Of a DNA stretch of 26,759 nt, positions 2,375-20,377 are shown piece by piece; the first letter of the stretch is position 1, and each line of letters starts with the position of its first letter. The notes beneath the pieces were generated by a model. That model had not been told where the DNA came from. It saw nothing but the letters and a program-made list of their open reading frames with translations, and did no database searches. Source of the stretch: a virus; IMG/VR virus record IMGVR_UViG_3300035698_006451, positions 1 to 26,759 of that record. One strand, written 5' to 3'. The translations under genes and the position numbers were made by a program.

Positions 2375-4539
2375 ATCTTCCTCATATAGATTTGTTTGAT
2401 TTTAATGTTGTGTTGCTTTTTCTGGTTTGGCGACATCTGAACTATCTCCTCGTTCGCCTCGAGGTTGTAAAGGGTTTCTTTGAAGGACCTGTCAAACCCG
2501 CGTTGGTCTCCAGTGAAGCAAGCCATGTTCTTGGCCCTAGCGTTTAGGTATCGTCTTGGAACATACAATGGAAAGTCCCCAGCCTTTGCGGCATAACTGG
2601 TTCTCTTACGAGGTGACAGGTTGTACCAGTCCGCAAAGAGCTCTAGGAGGTTCTGCTCCCTCTGGAGCGCAGTGTTCCCTCCCAGTGCACCGACTCTATA
2701 CTTGCTAATCAGGTTGTTCAGACTATAGGTGACATAGGAGTGAGCCCATTCAAGTAATGGCATGGTGATGACTGGTTTCTTTGGGTTCTCACAAGCTGCC
2801 AAGACGCTTGCAATACGACAGATGTTTAAGTGAACTCGGTTGTACAATCCCTGCTCAACCAGTGTGGAAGCATTGTCCTGAAGCACCACGATGTCATTCC
2901 GGAACGTCTTAGCAGCTAACTCAACCTCCTCGTCAGCGAAGGGAACCTCAATGACTGTCGTCTGTGTTGCGCTTTCAATCAGCTTCCGTAGACCGTCTAT
3001 TATCTTTGGGTGAGGGGGTGAGAACTCATCGTCGTTGTATGCTGGTGTTTTTCCTTTGTGCTCAAGAACAATGAAGCGAGGTATTAATCCGCGCTTGATT
3101 GCATGGTCCCCAATGGACTCAAAGAAGTCTGGTGTACCACTGCCCATCAGGGTGACAGCAGGCCGCTCAACTGCCTGTACATTGTTCTTGGAATCACGAT
3201 GCACCTTACCACCGAAATCCACCTCGTCGTACAGGCGAAGGTAAGCATTGCACATGACGCGAGCGTTGTCACTTGCTTTGATGTCACTAATCATTAACAG
3301 GTCGTCCGCGAACTCCCCAGTGTAAACACTATAGCAAGGCTGTTCCGCCAAGCTTGCAAACAATGCCTGCCCGCTTGCTGCTTCAGGTCCTAGGAACTGC
3401 CCAAACAATAACCCCTTCTCGTCAAGCACCTTCTTAAGCTGGAACAGTGGTTTCCGGCTGGCGTCCTTACCGCTACCAGTGCGCCCAATGATAAGGGTGA
3501 AGGTGTTAATAGTGGATCCTCGGAACGCATATCGTCTGCCGACTATGCCTGCGAGTGTGGTCATTACATTAGCAATCGCAAAGCTCTTGATGGGCTGGAC
3601 GCTGTTGATGTAAAAGTATTCTGACATCAGTCCAGCCAGACCGGGCGGGAACTCCAATGTCTCGTCGGGAAGACCGGAAGCGATTGCGTCTGGGTTCTGC
3701 TTCTTGAGGAACTCGCTGAGTTGCGTAAGATCAACCGCATCGTCTGGTTCTTGGTTGACCGCTCTAGAATGCTGAAGGCTCCGGTCAATATACTCGTTCC
3801 CCCTTGCTGCAACCTTTGCCCGCTTTGCTCTTCTGCTTTCTTTGAATAGCCTACGGACTTGTTCATTAGACTCGCTGTAGAAGCAGAGTCTTTCAATAAG
3901 CGATTGATCCAGGATGCTATCGTCACCCTCCACCTCCTCGTCATACAGTTTTGAATTCTCGTCCCCGTTATAAGCTTGCCTGAAGCGGTCCATGACCTCT
4001 TGGTCTGTCTGTGTCTCAGGTTGCTCAACGAGCTCTATTCTTTTGACATCGTCATCTGGGAACTCCTTCAAGTAGAGCTCGTCAAACAATTTCTCACTGT
4101 CCACAGTCACTTCTTTTCCGTTACTGTTTTGAGTAATAATGATGTAGCGGCCCCAACTATAGTACTCAGTGTTCGCGCTCCGCCTACTGGTGAGCTGAGT
4201 GCCTTCGTATATAATATGGTATCCGTTTCCGCTGAAGCTCACTTCACAATAGTGCCCGTGTTCATTGGACCGCGAAACCATAAGGTCGTTCCGCGTTTGC
4301 ACTTCGGGGTCTAGTTTTTTGTTGTCAAGGTCAAAGACACAGAATGGGTCTGTGGTGGTAAAGACAAATCCAATGTGAGTACCGATACCACTTTCAACAG
4401 CGGCGGTTGCTTGCTTAAAGGTAGCCCAATGGGAAGCGTCAGTAACGCTTGCCCTACTACCATTGATCCGAAGCGGTTCCTTGTTCACGCTTGGGTTACT
4501 GATAACCCATTGCTTGAACTTCTTCATTCTTCCTAGCAT
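2371..4539 (-). CDS. Primase-ATPase: AEP-like primase domain plus DUF3987-like ATPase/helicase
   Basis: This 722-residue protein probably primes and helps open the replication fork. The N-terminal region resembles archaeo-eukaryotic primase (NrS-1/RepB-type) folds: VFDLDN with Asp70 and Asp72 as the metal-binding DxD, then SGNGYHI with His108, then GRYIIITQ near 130. After an acidic linker (about 160-290) comes an ATPase region with the P-loop GRTGSGKD (352-359), typical of phage DUF3987/VirE-like proteins. The C-terminal 80 residues are basic. The ATG at 4539 follows TAACCGGAGAATTA. It is the first leftward gene from the divergent control region. Assignment of the fold is by motif only. Whether it is a primase-polymerase or a primase-helicase is inference. 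Confidence 0.85.
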   Translation of the reverse strand: MLGRMKKFKQWVISNPSVNKEPLRINGSRASVTDASHWATFKQATAAVESGIGTHIGFVFTTTDPFCVFDLDNKKLDPEVQTRNDLMVSRSNEHGHYCEVSFSGNGYHIIYEGTQLTSRRSANTEYYSWGRYIIITQNSNGKEVTVDSEKLFDELYLKEFPDDDVKRIELVEQPETQTDQEVMDRFRQAYNGDENSKLYDEEVEGDDSILDQSLIERLCFYSESNEQVRRLFKESRRAKRAKVAARGNEYIDRSLQHSRAVNQEPDDAVDLTQLSEFLKKQNPDAIASGLPDETLEFPPGLAGLMSEYFYINSVQPIKSFAIANVMTTLAGIVGRRYAFRGSTINTFTLIIGRTGSGKDASRKPLFQLKKVLDEKGLLFGQFLGPEAASGQALFASLAEQPCYSVYTGEFADDLLMISDIKASDNARVMCNAYLRLYDEVDFGGKVHRDSKNNVQAVERPAVTLMGSGTPDFFESIGDHAIKRGLIPRFIVLEHKGKTPAYNDDEFSPPHPKIIDGLRKLIESATQTTVIEVPFADEEVELAAKTFRNDIVVLQDNASTLVEQGLYNRVHLNICRIASVLAACENPKKPVITMPLLEWAHSYVTYSLNNLISKYRVGALGGNTALQREQNLLELFADWYNLSPRKRTSYAAKAGDFPLYVPRRYLNARAKNMACFTGDQRGFDRSFKETLYNLEANEEIVQMSPNQKKQHNIKIKQIYMRKI

Positions 4540-4610
4540 ATTGTAATTCTCCGGTTACAAAGCCCGCTTCACGAGTGGGGCTGTTACTTTACAGGAGGGG
4601 CTCGGGACTG

Positions 4611-4637
4611 TCTATAGTGTTGGGGGACCAGTGTGAA
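4611..4637 (-). promoter_or_regulatory. Probable leftward promoter of the primase operon
   Basis: On the minus strand TTCACA (4637-4632) is followed after 15 bases by TATAGA (4616-4611). The -10 is good and the -35 is weak. It is placed correctly for the leftward operon starting at 4539. Confidence 0.45.
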
Positions 4638-4654
4638 CCACTACATATAGGGGC

Positions 4655-4683
4655 TTGCTATTGGGAGCCCCGTTGTCTATATT
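4655..4683 (+). promoter_or_regulatory. Probable rightward early promoter
   Basis: TTGCTA (4655-4660) and TATATT (4678-4683) are separated by 17 bases, a good sigma70 match 34 bp before the first rightward gene. It is overlapped by the AGCCCC inverted repeat. Confidence 0.55.
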
Positions 4684-4716
4684 TAGCCCCTCACTCGTGT
4701 AACCGGAGAATTACTT

Positions 4717-5097
4717 ATGTCAGACCTCATCTTTGAATGGGAGCAAGCGGATCGCGCTCTCAGGAAAGCCAAGAAGCTTGAAAGCGATCTGCGAAAGGCG
4801 CTTGTCGCACACCACCATCCCGTCACCCTGCCAGAAGGTACTACTACCATTGAAGATCTCTTCAGCGGTAACGAACATGACGTTGTCCTGAAGATCACTC
4901 AGCCCTTTAGTTACAAACTAGACGCTTCCTTCCCTCAGGAGTGGTCCAACAGTGTTGTCGTTCGCACCAAGTATGAGCTCGTCAAAGCTGAATATAATAA
5001 GCTCAGTGACGTGCAAAAGAAGGAGCTTCAGCGTTGGCTAACAATCTCGCCAGGGTCCCCAAGCGTCAAAGTAATCCACACCGAAGCGGACGCATAA
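4717..5097 (+). CDS. Hypothetical protein, first gene of rightward operon
   Basis: The product is 126 residues. The N-terminal 35 residues form a charged helix (FEWEQADRALRKAKKLES) and the C-terminal part has a QPFSYKLDASFPQEW segment and a second helical stretch. The start ATG follows GTAACCGGAGAATTAC. Position next to a Sak4-like ATPase gene suggests a recombination or replication accessory role, since small proteins of this size commonly precede such genes in phages. No domain is recognised with confidence. Confidence 0.75.
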   Translation: MSDLIFEWEQADRALRKAKKLESDLRKALVAHHHPVTLPEGTTTIEDLFSGNEHDVVLKITQPFSYKLDASFPQEWSNSVVVRTKYELVKAEYNKLSDVQKKELQRWLTISPGSPSVKVIHTEADA

Positions 5098-5258
5098 TGA
5101 AACTGTTAGTTCAAACACTTTCAAAGTCGTTAGCCCCCGAAAATCGAGATCGAGTTTCATCAACCTACTTATATAGAGGTGAACGATCGGGGTCTGTAGG
5201 GGGCTTAAATTGCCGCACAATGAACAGTCAAACCTTAAACAACCAACCGGAGCAGTAA
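5097..5258 (+). CDS. Possible 53-residue protein lying over the repeated element
   Basis: The ATG at 5097 overlaps the stop of the preceding gene (TAATG), and the frame ends with TAA two bases before the next gene, which is an operon-like fit. The product begins MKLLVQTLSKSLAPENRDR and is polar and basic. The frame covers almost all of the 95-bp element duplicated at 15046-15140. In the second copy the matching frame keeps ENRDR-x-SSTYLYR with mostly synonymous changes and then stops. It may be a small gene, a leader peptide, or an accident of a non-coding element. Confidence 0.35.
   Translation: MKLLVQTLSKSLAPENRDRVSSTYLYRGERSGSVGGLNCRTMNSQTLNNQPEQ
5121..5216 (+). repeat. Duplicated ~95-bp element, copy A (before Sak4 gene)
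   Basis: This stretch is closely similar, nearly ungapped, to 15046-15140. Shared blocks include CCGAAAATCGAGATCGA, TCAACCTACTTATA and GCTTAAATTGCCGC. In copy A the element is flanked by a AGCCCCC/GGGGGCT inverted repeat (5132-5138 and 5199-5206), which is not kept in copy B. Function is unknown. A cis-regulatory or replication site, or an RNA leader, would fit. Confidence 0.75.
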
Positions 5259-5260
5259 TT

Positions 5261-6184
5261 ATGGGCGATGAAGCCAATTTCCAGATAGACAGCGATTTAG
5301 AAAAACACATGAATGGCCCAGGCGATGTGGCCCCCATTTTTCAACAACCCGAGGTGACAGTAACTGAGCCGGAACCTATAGTAGTAGCACCAGCTCAGCC
5401 GCTTAGTCTACTCAGCACCATCACGCGGACGAAGCATAAAACACCACCTCGGATCGTTCTTCATGGTCCCGAGAAGGTTGGTAAGTCCACGTTCTTTTCT
5501 AAAGCACCTAACCCAATTTATATCCAGACTGAAGACGGTCTGACGGGTATTGAAGCTGAGGGGTTCCCCCTTTGCGAAACCTTCCAGCAGGTCCTGGATC
5601 AGATTGGGGTTCTCTGCACAGAAGAACACGATTACCGAAGCGTCATTATGGACAGCGCAGATTGGACGGAACGATTAATCCATGCCCATGTTTGCAGCAT
5701 TGAGGGAGTCAGTAACATTGACAAAGCTCAAGGGGGTTATGGTAAGGGGTATCTTGAGGCCCTGAACCTTTGGAGAAGCGTCCTCCGCGGATTTGACTTC
5801 CTTAATAAACAGCGTGGAATGATTGTGGGCATTATCTGTCACAGCCGCATCGTTAGCATTAACGATCCAATGAACGATGTCTATGACAGCTACCAGATGA
5901 AGCTACATGATCCCAAGTCTGGTAACGGTAGCTCAGCTCTCTTGCGTGAATGGGCAGACATATTGCTATTCGCCAACACTCAAATCTTTACCCGTAAAAT
6001 CATCAGGGATGGGGGTAACGAAAAGAACTCAGCTGATAAACTGGGACGCGCCACTGGTACTAATAAAAGAATCCTGTACACTAACCCTTCCCCCGCTTAT
6101 GCAGCAGGCAACAGATACAATCTGCCAGCAGAGCTGGACCTAGAATGGGACGCGCTTCAAAACGCGCTTTCCGCAAACCCGTAA
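5261..6184 (+). CDS. RecA-family ATPase, Sak4-like (AAA_24) single-strand annealing/recombination protein
   Basis: The 307-residue protein carries a Walker A P-loop GPEKVGKS (69-76) and a Walker B-like SVIMDSADW with Asp131, as in the AAA_24/Sak4 group of phage RecA-like ATPases. These proteins promote single-strand annealing and homologous recombination with a partner single-strand-binding protein. The first 50 residues are acidic and Pro-rich. I chose ATG 5261 because AACCGGAG lies ten bases upstream; a longer TTG frame beginning near 5210 would run through the repeated element. It is followed 14 bases later by the DUF669 gene, the usual partner arrangement. Confidence 0.88.
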   Translation: MGDEANFQIDSDLEKHMNGPGDVAPIFQQPEVTVTEPEPIVVAPAQPLSLLSTITRTKHKTPPRIVLHGPEKVGKSTFFSKAPNPIYIQTEDGLTGIEAEGFPLCETFQQVLDQIGVLCTEEHDYRSVIMDSADWTERLIHAHVCSIEGVSNIDKAQGGYGKGYLEALNLWRSVLRGFDFLNKQRGMIVGIICHSRIVSINDPMNDVYDSYQMKLHDPKSGNGSSALLREWADILLFANTQIFTRKIIRDGGNEKNSADKLGRATGTNKRILYTNPSPAYAAGNRYNLPAELDLEWDALQNALSANP

Positions 6185-6198
6185 CCGGAGAATTACTC

Positions 6199-6762
6199 AT
6201 GGTACAATTAGCTCAACCTTTTAACCCAGCAGACATTCCACCTCAAGACAACAACTTTGAACCGTTGCCCACAGGTTGGTATCCCGCAATGATTGATGAA
6301 ACCACTCAGAAGGCCACCAAGGCTGCTCAGCGTGGAGAGAACAATGATTGGTATCTAAATGTCCGCTATACCATCCTCGGAGAGAAGTTTGCCAACCGCA
6401 AAATCTTTGACATGCTTAATCTCCAGAACAGCGGACCCAATGGGCAGCAGACAATGGAAATTGCCTACCGTCAAATGTCTTCAATCTGTCATGCTATTGG
6501 TTCTGGTCCCATCCAGGACACGGACCAGTTGAAGGACATCCCAATGAGCATCCACCTCAAGATGATCCCAGCGAAAGATGATTACCCAGCGAAGAACGAA
6601 GTCAACGGGTGGCAGGCATTGGACGCTCAACCTCAGGCGCCAGGAACACCAATGCCTGCGGCAGTAACAACAGCAGCGGCGACACCTGCCACAGTAACCG
6701 ACCCAACAGCAGCGCCGGCAGTAACTACCTCGGCACCAGCCAAACCGCCTTGGGAAAAGTAA
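6199..6762 (+). CDS. DUF669 family protein, probable ssDNA-binding partner
   Basis: The 187-residue protein has a folded N-terminal part (1-125; FEPLPTGWYPAMIDET, NDWYLNVRYTILGEKFANRKIFD) characteristic of phage DUF669 proteins, which are found next to Sak4-type ATPases. An Ala/Pro/Thr-rich disordered linker (about 140-182) follows, and the tail ends in KPPWEK. That architecture of OB-like core, linker and short conserved tip resembles single-strand-binding proteins. The stop codon of the upstream gene is part of the ribosome-binding motif TAACCGGAGAATTA. The ssDNA-binding function is inferred from family and context. Confidence 0.82.
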   Translation: MVQLAQPFNPADIPPQDNNFEPLPTGWYPAMIDETTQKATKAAQRGENNDWYLNVRYTILGEKFANRKIFDMLNLQNSGPNGQQTMEIAYRQMSSICHAIGSGPIQDTDQLKDIPMSIHLKMIPAKDDYPAKNEVNGWQALDAQPQAPGTPMPAAVTTAAATPATVTDPTAAPAVTTSAPAKPPWEK

Positions 6763-10068: not shown

Positions 10069-10297
10069 GCATGGACTCAGCACCAGTGGTAACGGTACTG
10101 TTTCCGCAAACAACCTGCTCTGCAACCTCAATCCACAGTCGGGTCAGCCGCCACCCAACATCTTAGTCTACGGCTGCCCAAACTGGGAGCTGAAGGAATT
10201 TCAACTTCAGAGGGATCCATCGTGGGCTGCCAAACTACAAGAATACAATAACGATAATAAAACTGACGACGATTGGGACGACGACATACCATTTTGA
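9980..10297 (+). CDS. Small Cys-rich protein with SSB-like acidic C-terminal tip
   Basis: The 105-residue product contains four cysteines (26, 29, 48, 66) in a CxxC...C...GCPNW pattern, like small zinc-binding phage proteins. It ends in TDDDWDDDIPF. The last six residues, DDDIPF, are the same as the C-terminal tip that bacterial SSB uses to recruit RecQ, RecO, primase, ExoI and others. No OB fold is visible, so this is not an SSB. The tail may attract or block host SSB-binding proteins, or tether the protein to phage replication factors. It overlaps the helicase gene by 89 bases. Confidence 0.72.
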   Translation: MVSVTKEEVIKLVRDDIDRSGLVIHCMNCRHGLSTSGNGTVSANNLLCNLNPQSGQPPPNILVYGCPNWELKEFQLQRDPSWAAKLQEYNNDNKTDDDWDDDIPF

Positions 10298-10315
10298 TTT
10301 ATTTTGCGAAAGGGG

Positions 10316-10343
10316 TTGAACTGTTCGAACAGATGCCTATACT
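10316..10343 (+). promoter_or_regulatory. Sigma70-like promoter with palindromic spacer
   Basis: TTGAAC (10316-10321), a 16-base spacer, then TATACT (10338-10343). The -35/spacer contains the perfect 12-bp palindrome CTGTTCGAACAG (10321-10332), a likely operator. It drives the small gene at 10385. Confidence 0.75.
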
Positions 10344-10384
10344 GGGTAACAAGTAAAGCAACTAATCAATCCAAGGAAAACAAA

Positions 10385-10621: not shown

Positions 10622-10637
10622 ACTCACCACACCTCAC

Positions 10638-10669
10638 GGGGCGCATTAGGCGTCCTTTGTCGTCACTAA
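10638..10669 (+). repeat. Intergenic hairpin element, copy 1
   Basis: GGGGCGC-ATTAG-GCGTCC forms a short stem with one bulge and is followed by the conserved CTTTGTCGTCACTAA. It is nearly identical to the element at 20254-20286 and related to 12607-12639. Each copy lies just after a gene stop, which suggests partial termination or RNA processing. Confidence 0.65.
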
Positions 10670-11998: not shown

Positions 11999-12583
11999 AT
12001 GAACAACAAGACAGACCCAGCACCAAAGGTAGAACGAGTTAAAGCTGAATTCAAAAACGGGATTCGCAAGCCCCTGAAAGCAGATTCAAAGTGCGGTCAG
12101 GTTTGGGCTATCTGTGATGGCTTAACCAACGGCACATCAATCCCGACTATCGCACAGGTATTCAAGAAAGCGTTACCTGCTGGTCTTAACGAGAACAACG
12201 TCAAGGTTGAATACATTAGCTGGCGTAAGTTCAATGGCCACCCTTCTGTTGGCAAGGGTCCTGAAGCGGTAAAAGCAAAAGCTGACGCTGAGAAAGCCAA
12301 GGTTGATGCTCAAGCTGCTAAAGTTAAGGCTCGCGCTGACGCAAAAGCTGAGAAGGAAAAAGCTTCAGTTGACGCTAAGGGTGCTAAAGCTAAAGCTAAG
12401 ACCGAGGCTGCCGCTGCTAAAGTCAAGGCCGCAAAGGAAAAGGCTGACGCCAAGAACGAAGCTGCCAAGGTTAAAGCTGCTGCTGACAAGCAAGCAAAGT
12501 CTGACAAGGCTGCCGCTGCTAAAGTCAAAGCTGACAAAGCTGCTAAGGCTGCAAAAGCTGCTAAGGCTGCAAAAGCTGCCTAA
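11999..12583 (+). CDS. Histone-H1-like protein: winged-helix-like N-terminus with Lys/Ala-rich tail
   Basis: The 194-residue protein has an N-terminal folded region (about 25-80; GQVWAICDGLTNG...NNVKVEYISWRKF) related to domains in the 10683 and 19554 proteins. It then has a 110-residue tail made almost only of Ala, Lys, Asp and Glu in AKxKA-type repeats, like histone H1 or AlgP tails. Such tails bind nucleic acid without sequence preference. GGAGGAG precedes ATG 11999. The gene interrupts the preQ0 pathway between queE and queC, so it may act on modified phage DNA, for example in compaction or protection. That link is inference. Confidence 0.78.
   Translation: MNNKTDPAPKVERVKAEFKNGIRKPLKADSKCGQVWAICDGLTNGTSIPTIAQVFKKALPAGLNENNVKVEYISWRKFNGHPSVGKGPEAVKAKADAEKAKVDAQAAKVKARADAKAEKEKASVDAKGAKAKAKTEAAAAKVKAAKEKADAKNEAAKVKAAADKQAKSDKAAAAKVKADKAAKAAKAAKAAKAA
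12539..12580 (+). repeat. Tandem 18-bp repeat encoding the Lys/Ala tail
   Basis: Two exact copies of GCTGCTAAGGCTGCAAAA (12539-12556 and 12557-12574) are followed by a partial third copy, just before the stop. Such repeats can vary in copy number by slippage. Confidence 0.85.
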
Positions 12584-12606
12584 ACCCAGCTCAACAAGTC
12601 GTGCCA

Positions 12607-12639
12607 ACAAAGGGGGCTTCGTGCCTCCTTTGTCGTCAC
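12607..12639 (+). repeat. Intergenic hairpin element, copy 2 (terminator-like)
   Basis: ACAAAGGGGGC-TTCGT-GCCTCCTTTGT forms an 11-bp stem with one G-T mismatch pair, followed by CGTCAC. The 3' arm and tail CCTTTGTCGTCAC are shared with the elements at 10638 and 20254. It lies between the Lys/Ala-rich gene and gat-queC. Confidence 0.65.
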
Positions 12640-12659
12640 CCACAACCGGAGGAAATACA

Positions 12660-14036: not shown

Positions 14037-14484
14037 TTGCAGCAGATGGCACGAGATAGACTGTGGTCACAGGGTAGTCGGCCAGGGCGGGAAATGCGAG
14101 ATGATCCACGGTCACCGCTACCGTATAGAGTTCCATGCCCGAACCGAAACTCCTACCTTCGAAATGGATCAATCTGTTGACACGGAAGAGCTCAATGAGA
14201 TTGGGATGATAATTGACTTTGGAATTATCAAAGAGAAGCTCTGCGGATGGCTGGATGAGAACTGGGATCACCGTTACCTATGCTATGACCGTGACCCACT
14301 GGGTGAGCAGATAATGGAACTGGATCTTGGTGCTGTCTTTGTTGACTTTAACCCAACGGCGGAAAACATTGCAGACCATCTACTTAGAATTGTAGCCCAA
14401 GAGCAGCTCGCAGACACTGGAGTTGAGGTCTGGAAAGTAGTAGTTCACGAAACCCTCAAGTGTCACGCAGAGGCAACACTATGA
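14026..14484 (+). CDS. queD: 6-carboxy-5,6,7,8-tetrahydropterin synthase
   Basis: Converts dihydroneopterin triphosphate to 6-carboxytetrahydropterin, the second step of preQ0 synthesis. The 152-residue protein has the zinc ligands His15, His28 and His30 (GHRV and MIHGH) and the catalytic Cys24 in a CxxxHGH motif, followed by DFGIIK and HETLKCHAE, which is the usual length and pattern. It overlaps gat-queC by 11 bases and folE by four bases, so the three are translated as a coupled group. Confidence 0.95.
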   Translation: MTLSCSRWHEIDCGHRVVGQGGKCEMIHGHRYRIEFHARTETPTFEMDQSVDTEELNEIGMIIDFGIIKEKLCGWLDENWDHRYLCYDRDPLGEQIMELDLGAVFVDFNPTAENIADHLLRIVAQEQLADTGVEVWKVVVHETLKCHAEATL

Positions 14485-15032
14485 AGCAGTCTATGAACAA
14501 CGGAAGACTCTTCTACCTTTTGCTTGAAGCGATAGGGGAAGACCCCAATCGTGACGGGTTGAAGGAAACACCGGAGCGAATGATAAAAGCTTGGGAGCAT
14601 TGGACAAGCGGTTATGATACAAACTTTGACGAGCTCCTGACCACCTTTGAGAACGATGGTAATTATGACCAGATGATAACGGTGAAGGACATTCCGTTCT
14701 ACAGTCATTGTGAACATCACCTCGCTCCCTTTTTCGGAACAGCCACCATCAGTTACATCCCAGGCGAAGGTAGAATTGTGGGGCTCAGTAAGCTCAGTCG
14801 GGTTCTCGCTGGCTACTCAAAGCGCCTTCAGGTTCAGGAACGACTCACTGCTCAAGTTGCAGAAGCCTTAATGGAACATCTTAGTCCCGAGGGAGTTGGT
14901 GTTGAAATAAGAGCAAGACATCTTTGCATGGAGTCGCGGGGAATCGCTCAGCAAGGTTCGGAAACTATCACCACAGCTCTGCTCGGTTGCTATCGGGACG
15001 CCGAGGTAAAGCAGGAGTTTTTAAACCGTTGA
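14481..15032 (+). CDS. folE: GTP cyclohydrolase I
   Basis: Makes dihydroneopterin triphosphate from GTP, feeding QueD. Diagnostic motifs in 183 residues are ETPERM (29-34), SHCEHHLAPF (75-84, zinc ligands Cys77 and His80), GLSKLSR (101-107), RLQVQERLT (115-123) and HLCMESRG (147-154, Cys149). I chose ATG 14481 because it overlaps the queD stop as ATGA and has GAGG upstream; a GTG at 14460 is possible but lies inside queD. The gene frees the pathway from host folate metabolism. Confidence 0.96.
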   Translation: MKQSMNNGRLFYLLLEAIGEDPNRDGLKETPERMIKAWEHWTSGYDTNFDELLTTFENDGNYDQMITVKDIPFYSHCEHHLAPFFGTATISYIPGEGRIVGLSKLSRVLAGYSKRLQVQERLTAQVAEALMEHLSPEGVGVEIRARHLCMESRGIAQQGSETITTALLGCYRDAEVKQEFLNR

Positions 15033-15045
15033 AATCGCAGCTTAA

Positions 15046-15140
15046 TCAAGTTGTTAACATCCGAAAATCGAGATCGATGTTCGTCAACCTACTTATACCG
15101 ATGAATAGGAACGCCTCTGTAATCATGCTTAAATTGCCGC
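15046..15140 (+). repeat. Duplicated ~95-bp element, copy B (before dpdA-like gene)
   Basis: This copy is highly similar to 5121-5216 and begins 14 bases after the folE stop. It ends one base before the ATG of the dpdA-like gene, so it fills the whole leader where a Shine-Dalgarno would normally lie. It shares CCGAAAATCGAGATCGA, TCAACCTACTTATA and GCTTAAATTGCCGC with copy A. The identical placement just upstream of two different genes argues for a regulatory or DNA-site role. Confidence 0.78.
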
Positions 15141-15141
15141 T

Positions 15142-16053
15142 ATGAAGATCTACATTGCAGCCCTTTACTCCAACCAGTATAAATCGCCCGGGCGTCAAGC
15201 CAAACTTGATCAACGGGAGAAAGGGGTCATAGATGGACTGGAAAACTTGTTGGAGAGCTATCATTACGTCAACAAGGACAGCTTCGTTGACAAGATGAGG
15301 GAGACCGGAGCCACTGTCTTTTTGGACAGTGGTGCCTTCAGTGCGGACACTCTTGGGGTCACAATTGATATTGAGGCATACTGTAAATACATACAGGTCA
15401 ACCAAGACATCATTCGCGTTCAGGATGGAACCCTAATGGCGGCCGTCCTTGATGGCATTGGTGACGCTCAACTCACTTATGAGAACCAGCTCACAATGGA
15501 AAGTCTGGGAGTCAGACCGATGCCATGTTTCCATGCTGGGGAAGACATTAGGTATCTGGAATGGTATATCGAGAACTACGATTACATCAGCCTCGGTGGG
15601 TTGGTGGGGGCGAGCGTTAAACAGCTCACCATCTGGTTGGACAGGGTCTGGAATAACCATCTAGTGGACGGAGCTGGGAATCCTAAAATTAAGGTCCACG
15701 GATTTGGTATCACCAGTATTCCACTCATGGAGCGTTATCCTTGGTTCAGTTGTGACAGCTCCTCCTGGATCCAGAGTGCAGCCTTTGGAACTATCATCAC
15801 CCCCGACTTTGGAACGGTGAGCGTTAGTAGCAAGAGCCCTTCGAGATTTGATAAGGGTCAACACCTCACAACCCTAACATCCATAGAAAGGGAGTTTCTT
15901 GAAAACCAAATCAGGGAGCAGGGGTTTGACCCCGACAAGCTTGCAATCGTGTATGAAAGTCGTGCAACATATAATCTCTGGACGTTCACCGTACTGGAGG
16001 ATCTAATTAATGCTAAGGCAAAATCTAAGACGGTAGTCCAGGAACTTTTTTAA
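15142..16053 (+). CDS. dpdA: DpdA-like 7-deazaguanine DNA transglycosylase
   Basis: Predicted to exchange guanine in phage DNA for the preQ0-type base, in the TGT/DpdA fold. The 303-residue protein has FLDSGAFS (Asp62, corresponding to the TGT TDSGGF motif), CFHAG (129-133), SLGGLVGAS (150-158, TGT-like phosphate or base loop), HGFGIT (186-191) and FSCDSSSW with Asp205, a candidate nucleophile matching the catalytic Asp region of TGT. It follows folE directly and has no separate Shine-Dalgarno because the repeated element occupies its leader. Family and context are strong; which base it inserts is inferred from the amidotransferase-QueC fusion. Confidence 0.88.
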   Translation: MKIYIAALYSNQYKSPGRQAKLDQREKGVIDGLENLLESYHYVNKDSFVDKMRETGATVFLDSGAFSADTLGVTIDIEAYCKYIQVNQDIIRVQDGTLMAAVLDGIGDAQLTYENQLTMESLGVRPMPCFHAGEDIRYLEWYIENYDYISLGGLVGASVKQLTIWLDRVWNNHLVDGAGNPKIKVHGFGITSIPLMERYPWFSCDSSSWIQSAAFGTIITPDFGTVSVSSKSPSRFDKGQHLTTLTSIEREFLENQIREQGFDPDKLAIVYESRATYNLWTFTVLEDLINAKAKSKTVVQELF

Positions 16054-16280: not shown

Positions 16281-16540
16281 TGGAAATCAAAATTGTCTAC
16301 CCCATATTGTGTCAGGGGGAAACTCACACGTCCAATAGTTTTGATGTTCTTCAAAGGGTCTGCGATGCAGAGCTTTGGGACTTTGATCAGCAAGGTGATT
16401 CAAAGGTTGTTCATGCCACCAAGTTCTTTAGCGATGTTGAACAAGCTAAGTTCTCAAGGAATGCGTTCATTGCACGTCTACACGCTGTGAAGACTAAATA
16501 CATGGGCATTCGAGCTCCACTCATCACAGGGGTATTCTAA
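16280..16540 (+). CDS. Hypothetical small protein
   Basis: The product is 86 residues, coupled by one-base overlaps to both neighbours (TAATG at each end). It contains CDAELWDFDQQ and a basic central helix (FSRNAFIARLHAVKTKY). No domain is recognised. It sits directly before the clamp gene. Confidence 0.6.
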   Translation: MEIKIVYPILCQGETHTSNSFDVLQRVCDAELWDFDQQGDSKVVHATKFFSDVEQAKFSRNAFIARLHAVKTKYMGIRAPLITGVF

Positions 16541-17520: not shown

Positions 17521-19480
17521 TTCGCTAGGAATGTTCTGGGAAGACCTACCTCCAGAGCCAAAGGTTAAAAAGAGCGCGATTAAACGCATACCTCCGGACC
17601 CAGTGTGGTTAGATGCCGAGTACCTGCCTTACCTTGCCGAAGCAGAGCGATTCGAATTGGACGCTGAGCAATACACCGATGAAGATCTAATCGGGCTTAG
17701 AGAGCCCCTAGTGTTCGACATTGAATCGAATCCCAACTATTTTCTCGTCATGTTCATGGGTGTCCACAGCAAGAAGCTTATCTGGTTTGAGTCCCTCAAC
17801 GGCTCCCAGTTTGATATTGAAAAGCTCCGCTGGCTGGTAACGACTAAATTAATTGTAGGCTTCAACAGCCGGAAGTATGACATTATTATTTTGGCGTTGG
17901 CATTAAAGGGTTATGACTCATCCATCCTAAACAATGCTACTGACATGATTATCAACCAGGATTATCTTCCTTGGGACGTCCTCAGACACTATAAGACAAG
18001 GGACCTTGAGTGTAACCATATAGATTTAATAGAGGTGTCCCCCGTATTTGGTTCTCTGAAAATATATGGGGGGCGTATACATTGTCAACGGATGCAGGAT
18101 TTACCATTCCCGCCAGGAAGCATTCTAAGTTATGAGCAGGCAATCATTACCCGCTTGTATTGTACCAACGACCTTGATATCACCTGTGACCTTTTTATGG
18201 TGCTTGAAAAACAACTCTCATTACGGGAAACGATGGGGAATGAGATGGGGCTTGACCTTAGAAGTAAATCCGACGCTCAAATTGCTGAGGCAACTATTAG
18301 CCAGACTCTAAGAAAGCTTCAGGGTTCTAAGCCCCTTCCCCCCGCAACAGAAGTCGGGAGAAAATATAAATATCAAATCCCCGACTATCTAAACTATAGG
18401 AGCCCCCTTATGCGGTGGGTTCTTGAGGTGGTGAGAGGGCTAGAATTTGAAGTTGGTCTTAAGGGGTCAATTATATTACCCGAGGACATGAAGCTCCTGT
18501 CTCAGATCCCTATAGGGGGCAGTGTTTACAGAATGGGGATTGGTGGGTTGCATAGTAGCGAGGACAGTGTCTCGCACCATGCTGACGCTGAGCATAGATT
18601 GTTAGACAGGGATGTCACCAGCTATTACCCCTTTATTATACTCAACCAAGAGCTTTATCCGAAGCACCTCGGTCGTGAGTACCTTGTAATCTATAGGGGG
18701 ATTGTTAACCGTAGGCTCGAGGCTAAGGCCTCTGGTAATAAGATAGTCGCTGACGCTTTAAAGATTACTATCAATGGGACTTTTGGTAAACATGGCAGTA
18801 AGCATTCTCTTGTCTATAGCCCTAACCTAGTGATGCAAATTACCGTGACGGGGCAGCTGGCTCTATTACTTCTAATAGAAAGATTGGAACTAGCGGGGAT
18901 ACCAGTTGTGTCCGCCAATACTGACGGCGTCGTAATCAGACCTCACATTAGCAAAGAACAAGAGATGGAAGATATTATTTTGCAATGGGAAAAAGATACC
19001 CGCTTTAATACCGAGGGGGTCGAATATAAGTCGTTGTACAGTAGGGACGTGAATAATTATATAGCGGTACAGACAGACGGAACCACAAAGACGAAGGGGA
19101 TCTTTGGTGATCCCGGATTAAGCAAGAACCCACAGAACAACATTGTGGCCACAGCCATTAAGCGCTTACTCACAGATGGCATACCAGTTGACCAGACTAT
19201 CAATGTCTGTAGGGACATCACCCAGTTCCTGACAGTGCGAACTGTTAAAGGTGGGGCTGTGAAGGATGGTGTATACCTCGGGAAGGCGATTCGCTGGTAC
19301 AAGAGCGACAGCGTCGGCGGGGAAATAGTATACGCCAGCAGTGGTAACAAAGTTCCAATGAGTGAGGACGCACGTCCTCTAATGAACCTACCAGACGAGT
19401 TCCCAGATGACGTGGACTTCGCTTGGTATGTTGAGGCCGCTTTGAAGCTTTTAAAAGAAATCGGATTTAATTTAGATTAA
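17510..19480 (+). CDS. Family-B DNA polymerase with 3'-5' exonuclease
   Basis: The 656-residue replicative polymerase carries exonuclease motifs FDIES (Asp70, Glu72), VGFNSRKYD (Asn119, Asp124) and YCTND (Tyr217, Asp221). Polymerase motifs are DVTSYYP (Asp368), KITINGTFG (Lys418, Asn422) and SANTDG (Asp472). In motif C the usual YxDTDS is replaced by NTDG, so one of the two acidic residues is Asn470. A GTG at 17510, overlapping the clamp gene, is used here; an ATG at 17531 is a possible alternative. No terminal-protein domain is seen. It forms a module with the upstream clamp. Confidence 0.88.
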   Translation: MRHDSLGMFWEDLPPEPKVKKSAIKRIPPDPVWLDAEYLPYLAEAERFELDAEQYTDEDLIGLREPLVFDIESNPNYFLVMFMGVHSKKLIWFESLNGSQFDIEKLRWLVTTKLIVGFNSRKYDIIILALALKGYDSSILNNATDMIINQDYLPWDVLRHYKTRDLECNHIDLIEVSPVFGSLKIYGGRIHCQRMQDLPFPPGSILSYEQAIITRLYCTNDLDITCDLFMVLEKQLSLRETMGNEMGLDLRSKSDAQIAEATISQTLRKLQGSKPLPPATEVGRKYKYQIPDYLNYRSPLMRWVLEVVRGLEFEVGLKGSIILPEDMKLLSQIPIGGSVYRMGIGGLHSSEDSVSHHADAEHRLLDRDVTSYYPFIILNQELYPKHLGREYLVIYRGIVNRRLEAKASGNKIVADALKITINGTFGKHGSKHSLVYSPNLVMQITVTGQLALLLLIERLELAGIPVVSANTDGVVIRPHISKEQEMEDIILQWEKDTRFNTEGVEYKSLYSRDVNNYIAVQTDGTTKTKGIFGDPGLSKNPQNNIVATAIKRLLTDGIPVDQTINVCRDITQFLTVRTVKGGAVKDGVYLGKAIRWYKSDSVGGEIVYASSGNKVPMSEDARPLMNLPDEFPDDVDFAWYVEAALKLLKEIGFNLD

Positions 19481-19483
19481 AGG

Positions 19484-19511
19484 TTGCGCTTCTGATTTGT
19501 TTACCTATACT
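19484..19511 (+). promoter_or_regulatory. Sigma70-like promoter, 16-bp spacer
   Basis: TTGCGC (19484-19489), 16 bases, TATACT (19506-19511), followed by GGGTAAC. CCTATACTGGGTAAC is shared with the 10316 promoter. The -10 is framed by TTACC and GGTAA, a small palindrome. It drives the 19554 gene. Confidence 0.75.
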
Positions 19512-19553
19512 GGGTAACAGTTACATCAAACAAACAAACCGGAGCAACACATC

Positions 19554-20240: not shown

Positions 20241-20253
20241 TCCCACTCACCGC

Positions 20254-20286
20254 AAAGGGGCGCTTCGGCGTCCTTTGTCGTCACTA
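20254..20286 (+). repeat. Intergenic hairpin element, copy 3
   Basis: AAAGGGGCGC-TTCG-GCGTCCTTT forms a stem closed by a UUCG tetraloop, with one bulge, followed by GTCGTCACTAA. It is almost the same as 10638-10669. It lies 13 bases after the stop of the protease-like gene. Confidence 0.7.
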
Positions 20287-20315
20287 ATTTAATTTGATTT
20301 AATTTGCGTTATCGC

Positions 20316-20343
20316 TTGCGGAGTTCAACTAGATGCCTATAAT
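20316..20343 (+). promoter_or_regulatory. Sigma70-like promoter with consensus -10
   Basis: TTGCGG (20316-20321), 16 bases, TATAAT (20338-20343). The AGATGCCTATA and GGG around the -10 match the 10316 promoter. It drives the two small genes 20378 and 20561. Confidence 0.8.
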
Positions 20344-20377
20344 GGGATACATAAACAAGCAAACAAGGACGCACAAA

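Follow-up and report, generated by a model that had tools for sequence, protein, structure and literature searches.

A duplicated bipartite element before the dpdA and Sak4-like genes of a Queuovirinae-like phage may be an activator-dependent promoter cassette

Gene organization

The window, by which we mean the whole 26.8 kb viral record analysed here, is probably a fragment of a genome. Its forward gene block is a Queuovirinae-like replication and DNA-modification module that reads DUF7173, Sak4, DUF669/SSB, a PD-(D/E)XK (YqaJ-like/Cas4-like) exonuclease and a helicase, followed by queE, a small protein, gat-queC, queD, folE, dpdA, a clamp-like protein and PolB. Annotations of Pseudomonas phage MiCath and of Alteromonas phage R7M show this gene order as well, and a role in dG+ synthesis is given to these genes in the R7M publication (PMC8265664). 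The Sak4 protein is 32% identical to that of MiCath, and DpdA is 61% identical to that of R7M. The region at 4539–4717 is divergent, separating primase/helicase genes on the minus strand from the forward block, with a promoter (TTGCTA-N17-TATATT) situated 39 nt before 4717. The genes that concern us most are as follows.

5261–6184, plus strand: Sak4-like single-strand annealing ATPase (phrog_124, 2e-33; Pfam AAA_24, 7e-36)
6199–6762, plus strand: DUF669/single-strand DNA-binding protein, the gene directly after Sak4
14481–15032, plus strand: folE (GTP cyclohydrolase I), the gene before copy B of the element, 60% identical to MiCath FolE
15142–16053, plus strand: dpdA (7-deazaguanine-inserting transglycosylase), without a Shine-Dalgarno sequence (phrog_887, 3e-77)

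A duplicated element with conserved blocks and a free spacer

A preliminary description of this DNA reported a duplicated element of about 95 bp, and the duplication is genuine: two 93 bp copies are identical at 66 of 93 positions in an ungapped alignment, with no net insertion or deletion. Both are situated in non-coding gaps (5098–5260 and 15033–15141), and there is no similarity between their flanks. They form the top-scoring 93-mer pair in the window, ahead of low-complexity coding stretches, which score 57, and members of a sigma-70 promoter cassette family, which score 55, and searching the record with the element returns exactly these two copies (E = 2.6e-12). As the window is probably a fragment, further copies may be located outside it.

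5124–5216, plus strand: copy A of the element, 93 bp, located in the gap that leads to the Sak4-like gene
15048–15140, plus strand: element copy B, 93 bp, in the folE–dpdA gap
5124–5174, plus strand: left block of copy A, where a regulator is proposed to bind, 51 bp, 43/51 kept
15048–15098, plus strand: left block of copy B, 43/51 kept
5138–5158: imperfect palindrome of copy A, CGAAAATCG-AGAT-CGAGTTTC
15062–15082: imperfect palindrome of copy B, CGAAAATCG-AGAT-CGATGTTC
5160–5173 (copy A) and 15084–15097 (copy B): the 14-mer TCAACCTACTTATA inside the left block
5175–5202, plus strand: spacer of copy A, 28 bp, 9/28 identical to copy B
15099–15126, plus strand: spacer of copy B, 28 bp, 9/28 identical to copy A
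5203–5216, plus strand: right block of copy A, GCTTAAATTGCCGC, which matches copy B at 14/14 positions, with a proposed -10 region (TTAAAT/TAAATT) assigned by analogy with relatives
15127–15140, plus strand: right block of copy B, GCTTAAATTGCCGC, with two overlapping -10-like hexamers before the dpdA ATG, TAAATT (-12) and TTAAAT (-13)

Identity between the copies is distributed very unevenly. The left 51 bp agree at 43 positions and the final 14 bp at all 14, while the 28 bp in the middle agree at 9, which is near chance; taken together, the blocks are identical at 57/65 positions and the spacer at 9/28 (Fisher p = 2e-7). Every block occupies an identical offset in both copies, such that the spacer is fixed in length and free in sequence. 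Uneven decay of this kind is not what one would expect of a neutral duplicate, and the blocks therefore appear to be selected, with the spacer keeping only its length. The palindrome of the left block has the form CGAAAATCG-AGAT-CGA(GT/TG)TTC in both copies and lies at -80 to -60 from the proposed start of transcription. By a rough estimate the palindrome on its own could be due to chance; at low mismatch, the palindrome and the 14-mer TCAACCTACTTATA occur only in the two copies.

The window contains other repeats. A second leader family has three copies (10293–10351, 19461–19519 and 20293–20351) of the form TTTGATTTAATTTGCG...TTGNNN-N16/17-CCTATAMTGGGNWACA, and each is a clear sigma-70 promoter cassette in front of a small gene. 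In addition, a hairpin-like sequence of about 40 nt (AAAGGGGCGCTTCGGCGTCCTTTGTCGTCACTAA) is repeated after genes at 10630–10669, 12603–12642 and 20248–20287, the first and third copies being 80% identical, and is perhaps terminator-like.

Position of the element relative to start codons

Copy B is followed by a single T and then by the dpdA ATG at 15142. After copy A come the bases ACA and then an ATG at 5220 that had been overlooked in the preliminary description, and with three bases and one base intervening respectively, both copies abut an ATG. The ATG after copy A opens a short reading frame.

5220–5258, plus strand: 12-codon ORF (ATG...TAA) just 3' of copy A; it stops 2 nt short of the Sak4 ATG and contains the Sak4 Shine-Dalgarno sequence (AACCGGAG)

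The earlier observation that copy B leaves no room for a Shine-Dalgarno sequence at dpdA holds: there is none at -19 to -4, in spite of the 109 bp gap that precedes the gene. Nearly all other genes in the window have one, mostly AACCGGAG, and dpdA is the sole gap-following gene without it. Among the other genes listed as lacking one, those at 16540 and 17510 overlap the preceding gene, and the start of that at 20348 is approximate.

Searches for the element elsewhere

We sampled 80 dpdA loci and 80 polB loci from IMG/VR and searched 2.9 Mb of these related loci with nhmmer and blastn, finding no copy of the element. Only chance matches were recovered by DNA-pattern searches in IMG/VR and GTDB, by blastn against phages and plasmids, and in 30 related virus records, which likewise lack the element. 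Matches at six loci (L008, L009, L010, L172, L173 and L174) are to unrelated sequence with the rest of the element missing. The Sak4 protein used as a query against IMG/VR found no close relative. The relatives thus do without the element, an outcome that the preliminary description would have counted against its proposal, but the nearest of them are only about 60–65% identical in DpdA, and an absence seen among relatives so distant (DpdA 65% or less) says little.

A different conserved leader of 160 nt occupies the gap before dpdA in six loci (L023, L025, L029, L030, L032 and L033), with a long hairpin (GACGATCGACTTGT...ACAAGTCGATCGTC), a promoter downstream of it and a single copy per locus. 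Weak minus-strand nhmmer matches to this leader in phages of the L023/L030 type (E = 1.5) were judged to be chance.

Does the element act as an RNA leader?

In one rival explanation the element would be a cis-acting RNA leader with which both messages begin, either riboswitch-like or the target of a translational regulator, and would control translation of, or read-through into, dpdA and sak4. Its location directly before an ATG without a Shine-Dalgarno sequence and its size, 93 nt or so being typical of leaders, are consistent with this. Copy A can form an outer stem of 7–10 bp (AGCCCCC/GGGGGCT), two pairs of which look by eye to be compensated in copy B, and a TTCRTC...GRTGAA stem is possible in both copies. 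However, consensus folding of the two copies on the plus strand is no better than that of column shuffles (z about +0.4), and on the minus strand the signal is weak (z about -1.4). The predicted folds differ between the copies. Compared with redrawn sequences, the outer stem is fairly strong in copy A (p = 0.03) but not in copy B (p = 0.87), and the pairing probability of the inner stem is 0.8–0.9 in copy A and 0.03 in copy B. A significance check on covariation of the outer arms came out negative, and the spacer varies freely with no covarying positions. No Rfam family matches the element at either the gathering or a relaxed threshold, in agreement with the earlier remark that it resembles none of the known preQ1 riboswitches. 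With no common fold, and with redrawn sequences pairing equally well, a structured RNA leader is unsupported; the folding results, from two sequences only, do not favour an RNA, and we consider this explanation unlikely.

Promoters upstream of dpdA and Sak4

The folE–dpdA gap of many Queuovirinae-like relatives holds a sigma-70-like promoter, typically TTGCGN-N17-TANNNT. Among 26 dpdA genes without a Shine-Dalgarno sequence, nine have a promoter with its -10 at -11 to -13 that beats 95% of shuffles, where about 1.3 would be expected, although this count overstates independence, as the loci are akin to each other (those of the L073/L075 type are not independent). The -10 at positions -10 to -14 also tends to be better in dpdA genes without a Shine-Dalgarno sequence than in those with one (Mann-Whitney p = 0.03). 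Six loci (L058, L080, L026, L071, L073 and L075) have TTGCNN-N17-TANNNT with the -10 at -11 or -12 of the dpdA ATG, examples being TTGCCA-N17-TAAAAT-tgctgc-ATG in L058, TTGCGT-N17-TATACT-gcagc-ATG in L080 and TTGCGT-N17-TAAACT-aggtc-ATG in L026. A -10 located 11–13 bases before an ATG that lacks a Shine-Dalgarno sequence implies a leaderless message, and several Queuovirinae-like phages thus apparently make leaderless dpdA mRNAs, judging from these sequences. Upstream of Sak4, the gap is promoter-like in MiCath (by eye) and in R7M (scored), and other loci with Sak4 present a mixed picture.

In copy B the hexamers TAAATT and TTAAAT at -12 and -13 match the -10 consensus at 4/6 positions (hexamer p = 0.03 against shuffles; p = 0.066 for the promoter score with the -35 included). 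Neither copy has a -35 hexamer 16–18 bp upstream of the -10-like sequence, and the sequence there is not conserved. Similarly, no sigma-70 promoter is called in either copy of the element, and several other gaps in the window have one. Sites for sigma-54, sigma-28, IHF and MotA were looked for by eye only, and none fits the element.

A model for the element

The explanation that we favour, and to which we give about an even chance of being correct, is that dpdA and the Sak4 operon are jointly controlled by a duplicated promoter cassette, the element, which depends on an activator and gives a leaderless dpdA mRNA. In this model the conserved left block, at about -95 to -45 from the proposed start, would be the binding site of a regulator (in all likelihood an activator) and would stand in for the absent -35, and the right block (GCTTAAATTGCCGC) would serve as a -10/start block from which RNA polymerase begins at or next to the ATG. 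Copy B would then give rise to a leaderless dpdA mRNA, and copy A, with its start near 5218, to an mRNA with a leader of about 40 nt carrying the sak4 Shine-Dalgarno sequence AACCGGAG, such that the two copies would switch on DNA modification (by DpdA) and the Sak4 recombination operon together. We infer the role of the right block as a -10, the binding of a regulator to the left block, the activating nature of that regulator and its candidate identity.

This model is favoured by the bipartite conservation, with a free spacer fixed at 28 bp and identical offsets, and a conserved upstream block does lie at a constant distance from the presumptive -10, in place of a -35. It is favoured too because dpdA is the only gap-following gene lacking a Shine-Dalgarno sequence and has a -10-like hexamer where its relatives have leaderless promoters, which also lends weight to the earlier suggestion that expression of dpdA depends on the element. 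Further points in its favour are the lack of a shared RNA structure, the absence from the element of a sigma-70 promoter of the kind present in other gaps, and the fact that this phage already repeats another promoter cassette three times. Against it we count the weak -10 match, the lack of a -35, the absence of a significant structural match for the candidate regulator described below, the presence of only two copies and the lack of a homologue elsewhere. The interpretation offered in the preliminary description is thereby upheld in part: its suggestion of a regulator-binding leader fits best, and those of a replication or recombination site or a DpdA/Sak4 recognition site are unsupported.

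The same left block could instead be an operator for a repressor, or a nucleoprotein site, blocking transcription or read-through, with the true promoters elsewhere and dpdA transcribed from the upstream que/folE operon. The imperfect 20 bp palindrome in both copies, the shared direction of the upstream genes and the lack of a recognisable promoter in the element accord with this, but a read-through mRNA would reach dpdA without a Shine-Dalgarno sequence, unlike at the other gap-following genes, and the identical right block beside the ATG would be left unexplained; we regard it as quite unlikely. That the element is a site of DNA processing (a replication origin, a place of recombination or nicking, or a target of Sak4 or DpdA) is very unlikely. 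It is non-coding, repeated and beside DNA-metabolism genes, and other phages are known to repeat nick motifs on one strand (PMC11780129). However, both copies are placed exactly against an ATG on the same strand as the genes, there are only two of them, separated by 10 kb, the element is missing from relatives that have the same DNA-processing proteins, and the published nick motif WACTRTGAC is not found in it by eye; we found no evidence for a replication or recombination site, and nothing supports recognition by the DpdA/Sak4 machinery. A functionless remnant of an insertion or mobile cassette would accord with the spread of small cassettes between genes that is common in phages and with relatives that lack the element at both places, but the contrast between blocks (57/65) and spacer (9/28) indicates that the blocks are selected, and neither terminal repeats nor target duplications are seen, making this highly improbable.

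The conserved left block is rich in GA steps, and GA is reportedly a motif at which Queuovirinae DNA is modified (title of Olsen et al. 2023, cited in PMC11780129). A regulator could therefore bind differently to copies with and without the modification, and the element might be a promoter switch that senses the modification made by DpdA, with feedback among modification, dpdA and the Sak4 operon, although we attach the slightest probability of all to this idea.

If the promoter cassette model is correct, the timing of 7-deazaguanine DNA modification would be tied to recombination in one regulon, dpdA may often be translated from leaderless messages in Queuovirinae-like phages, and not every repeated leader at a modification gene would be a riboswitch.

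A candidate regulator

The small protein encoded between queE and gat-queC (11999–12583) is a candidate DNA-binding regulator. Its N-terminal domain recurs near queE in related loci, and a conserved domain (NGIRRPKPDTKCG...LNEGNVKAEYARWRKFNG) is present in 99 of the loci sampled, and a phage often has two paralogues; in the window the protein has an Ala/Lys-rich, histone-like tail. The R7M counterpart is annotated as a transcriptional activator. AlphaFold predicts a confident three-helix core (pLDDT 79), and a Foldseek search with the model gave no significant structural match.

Comparison with known systems

A parallel in position is offered by the sigma-70 promoters in the folE–dpdA gap of Queuovirinae-like phages, which share with copy B the gap, the position of its putative -10 and, in some, a leaderless dpdA start of the kind proposed here. 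In contrast to the element, these promoters include a -35 (TTGCGN), and no upstream block is repeated. The preQ1 riboswitches (classes I–III) likewise precede genes of 7-deazaguanine metabolism, but the element has no Rfam match and is also found before sak4. In behaviour the element comes closest to T4 middle promoters, P2 late promoters, T4 PeSLs and the SAS/ESAS sequences of mycobacteriophages. At T4 middle promoters a MotA box, which replaces the -35, is combined with a -10. The element resembles these in having a putative activator box for a -35 at co-regulated replication/recombination genes, but it lacks a MotA box at -30 and its conserved block is at -95 to -45. In P2 late promoters the -10 is usable but the -35 is poor, and a phage activator binds to a dyad further upstream, a combination that the proposed architecture of the element resembles. 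They are activated by Ogr (PMC3931495); the Ogr dyad TGT-N12-ACA is in neither copy, and no Ogr-like zinc finger was noted here. The PeSLs of T4-type phages are mobile cassettes with an early promoter and a terminator stem-loop (cited in PMC4503421), and they are similar as promoter cassettes repeated between genes; neither a promoter nor a terminator is called in either copy of the element.

The SAS/ESAS sequences of cluster K mycobacteriophages (Pope et al. 2011; PMC3203893) also provide a parallel. The SAS are 13 bp, numerous and on the same strand immediately before the starts of unrelated genes, and about half have an imperfect inverted repeat upstream (PMC3203893); a regulatory role has been proposed for SAS/ESAS, with function unproven (PMC12699233). 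The likeness is that of a repeated same-strand sequence right before unrelated start codons, but the element is 93 bp, has two copies and no Shine-Dalgarno-like motif, and belongs to another phage group, and the SAS motif GGGATAGGAGCCC gave 0 matches with 2 mismatches allowed. As the defining motifs of SAS, Ogr promoters and PeSLs were sought and not found, we place the element in none of these classes and treat it, with a confidence of about one half, as a variant form of phage promoter/operator cassette.
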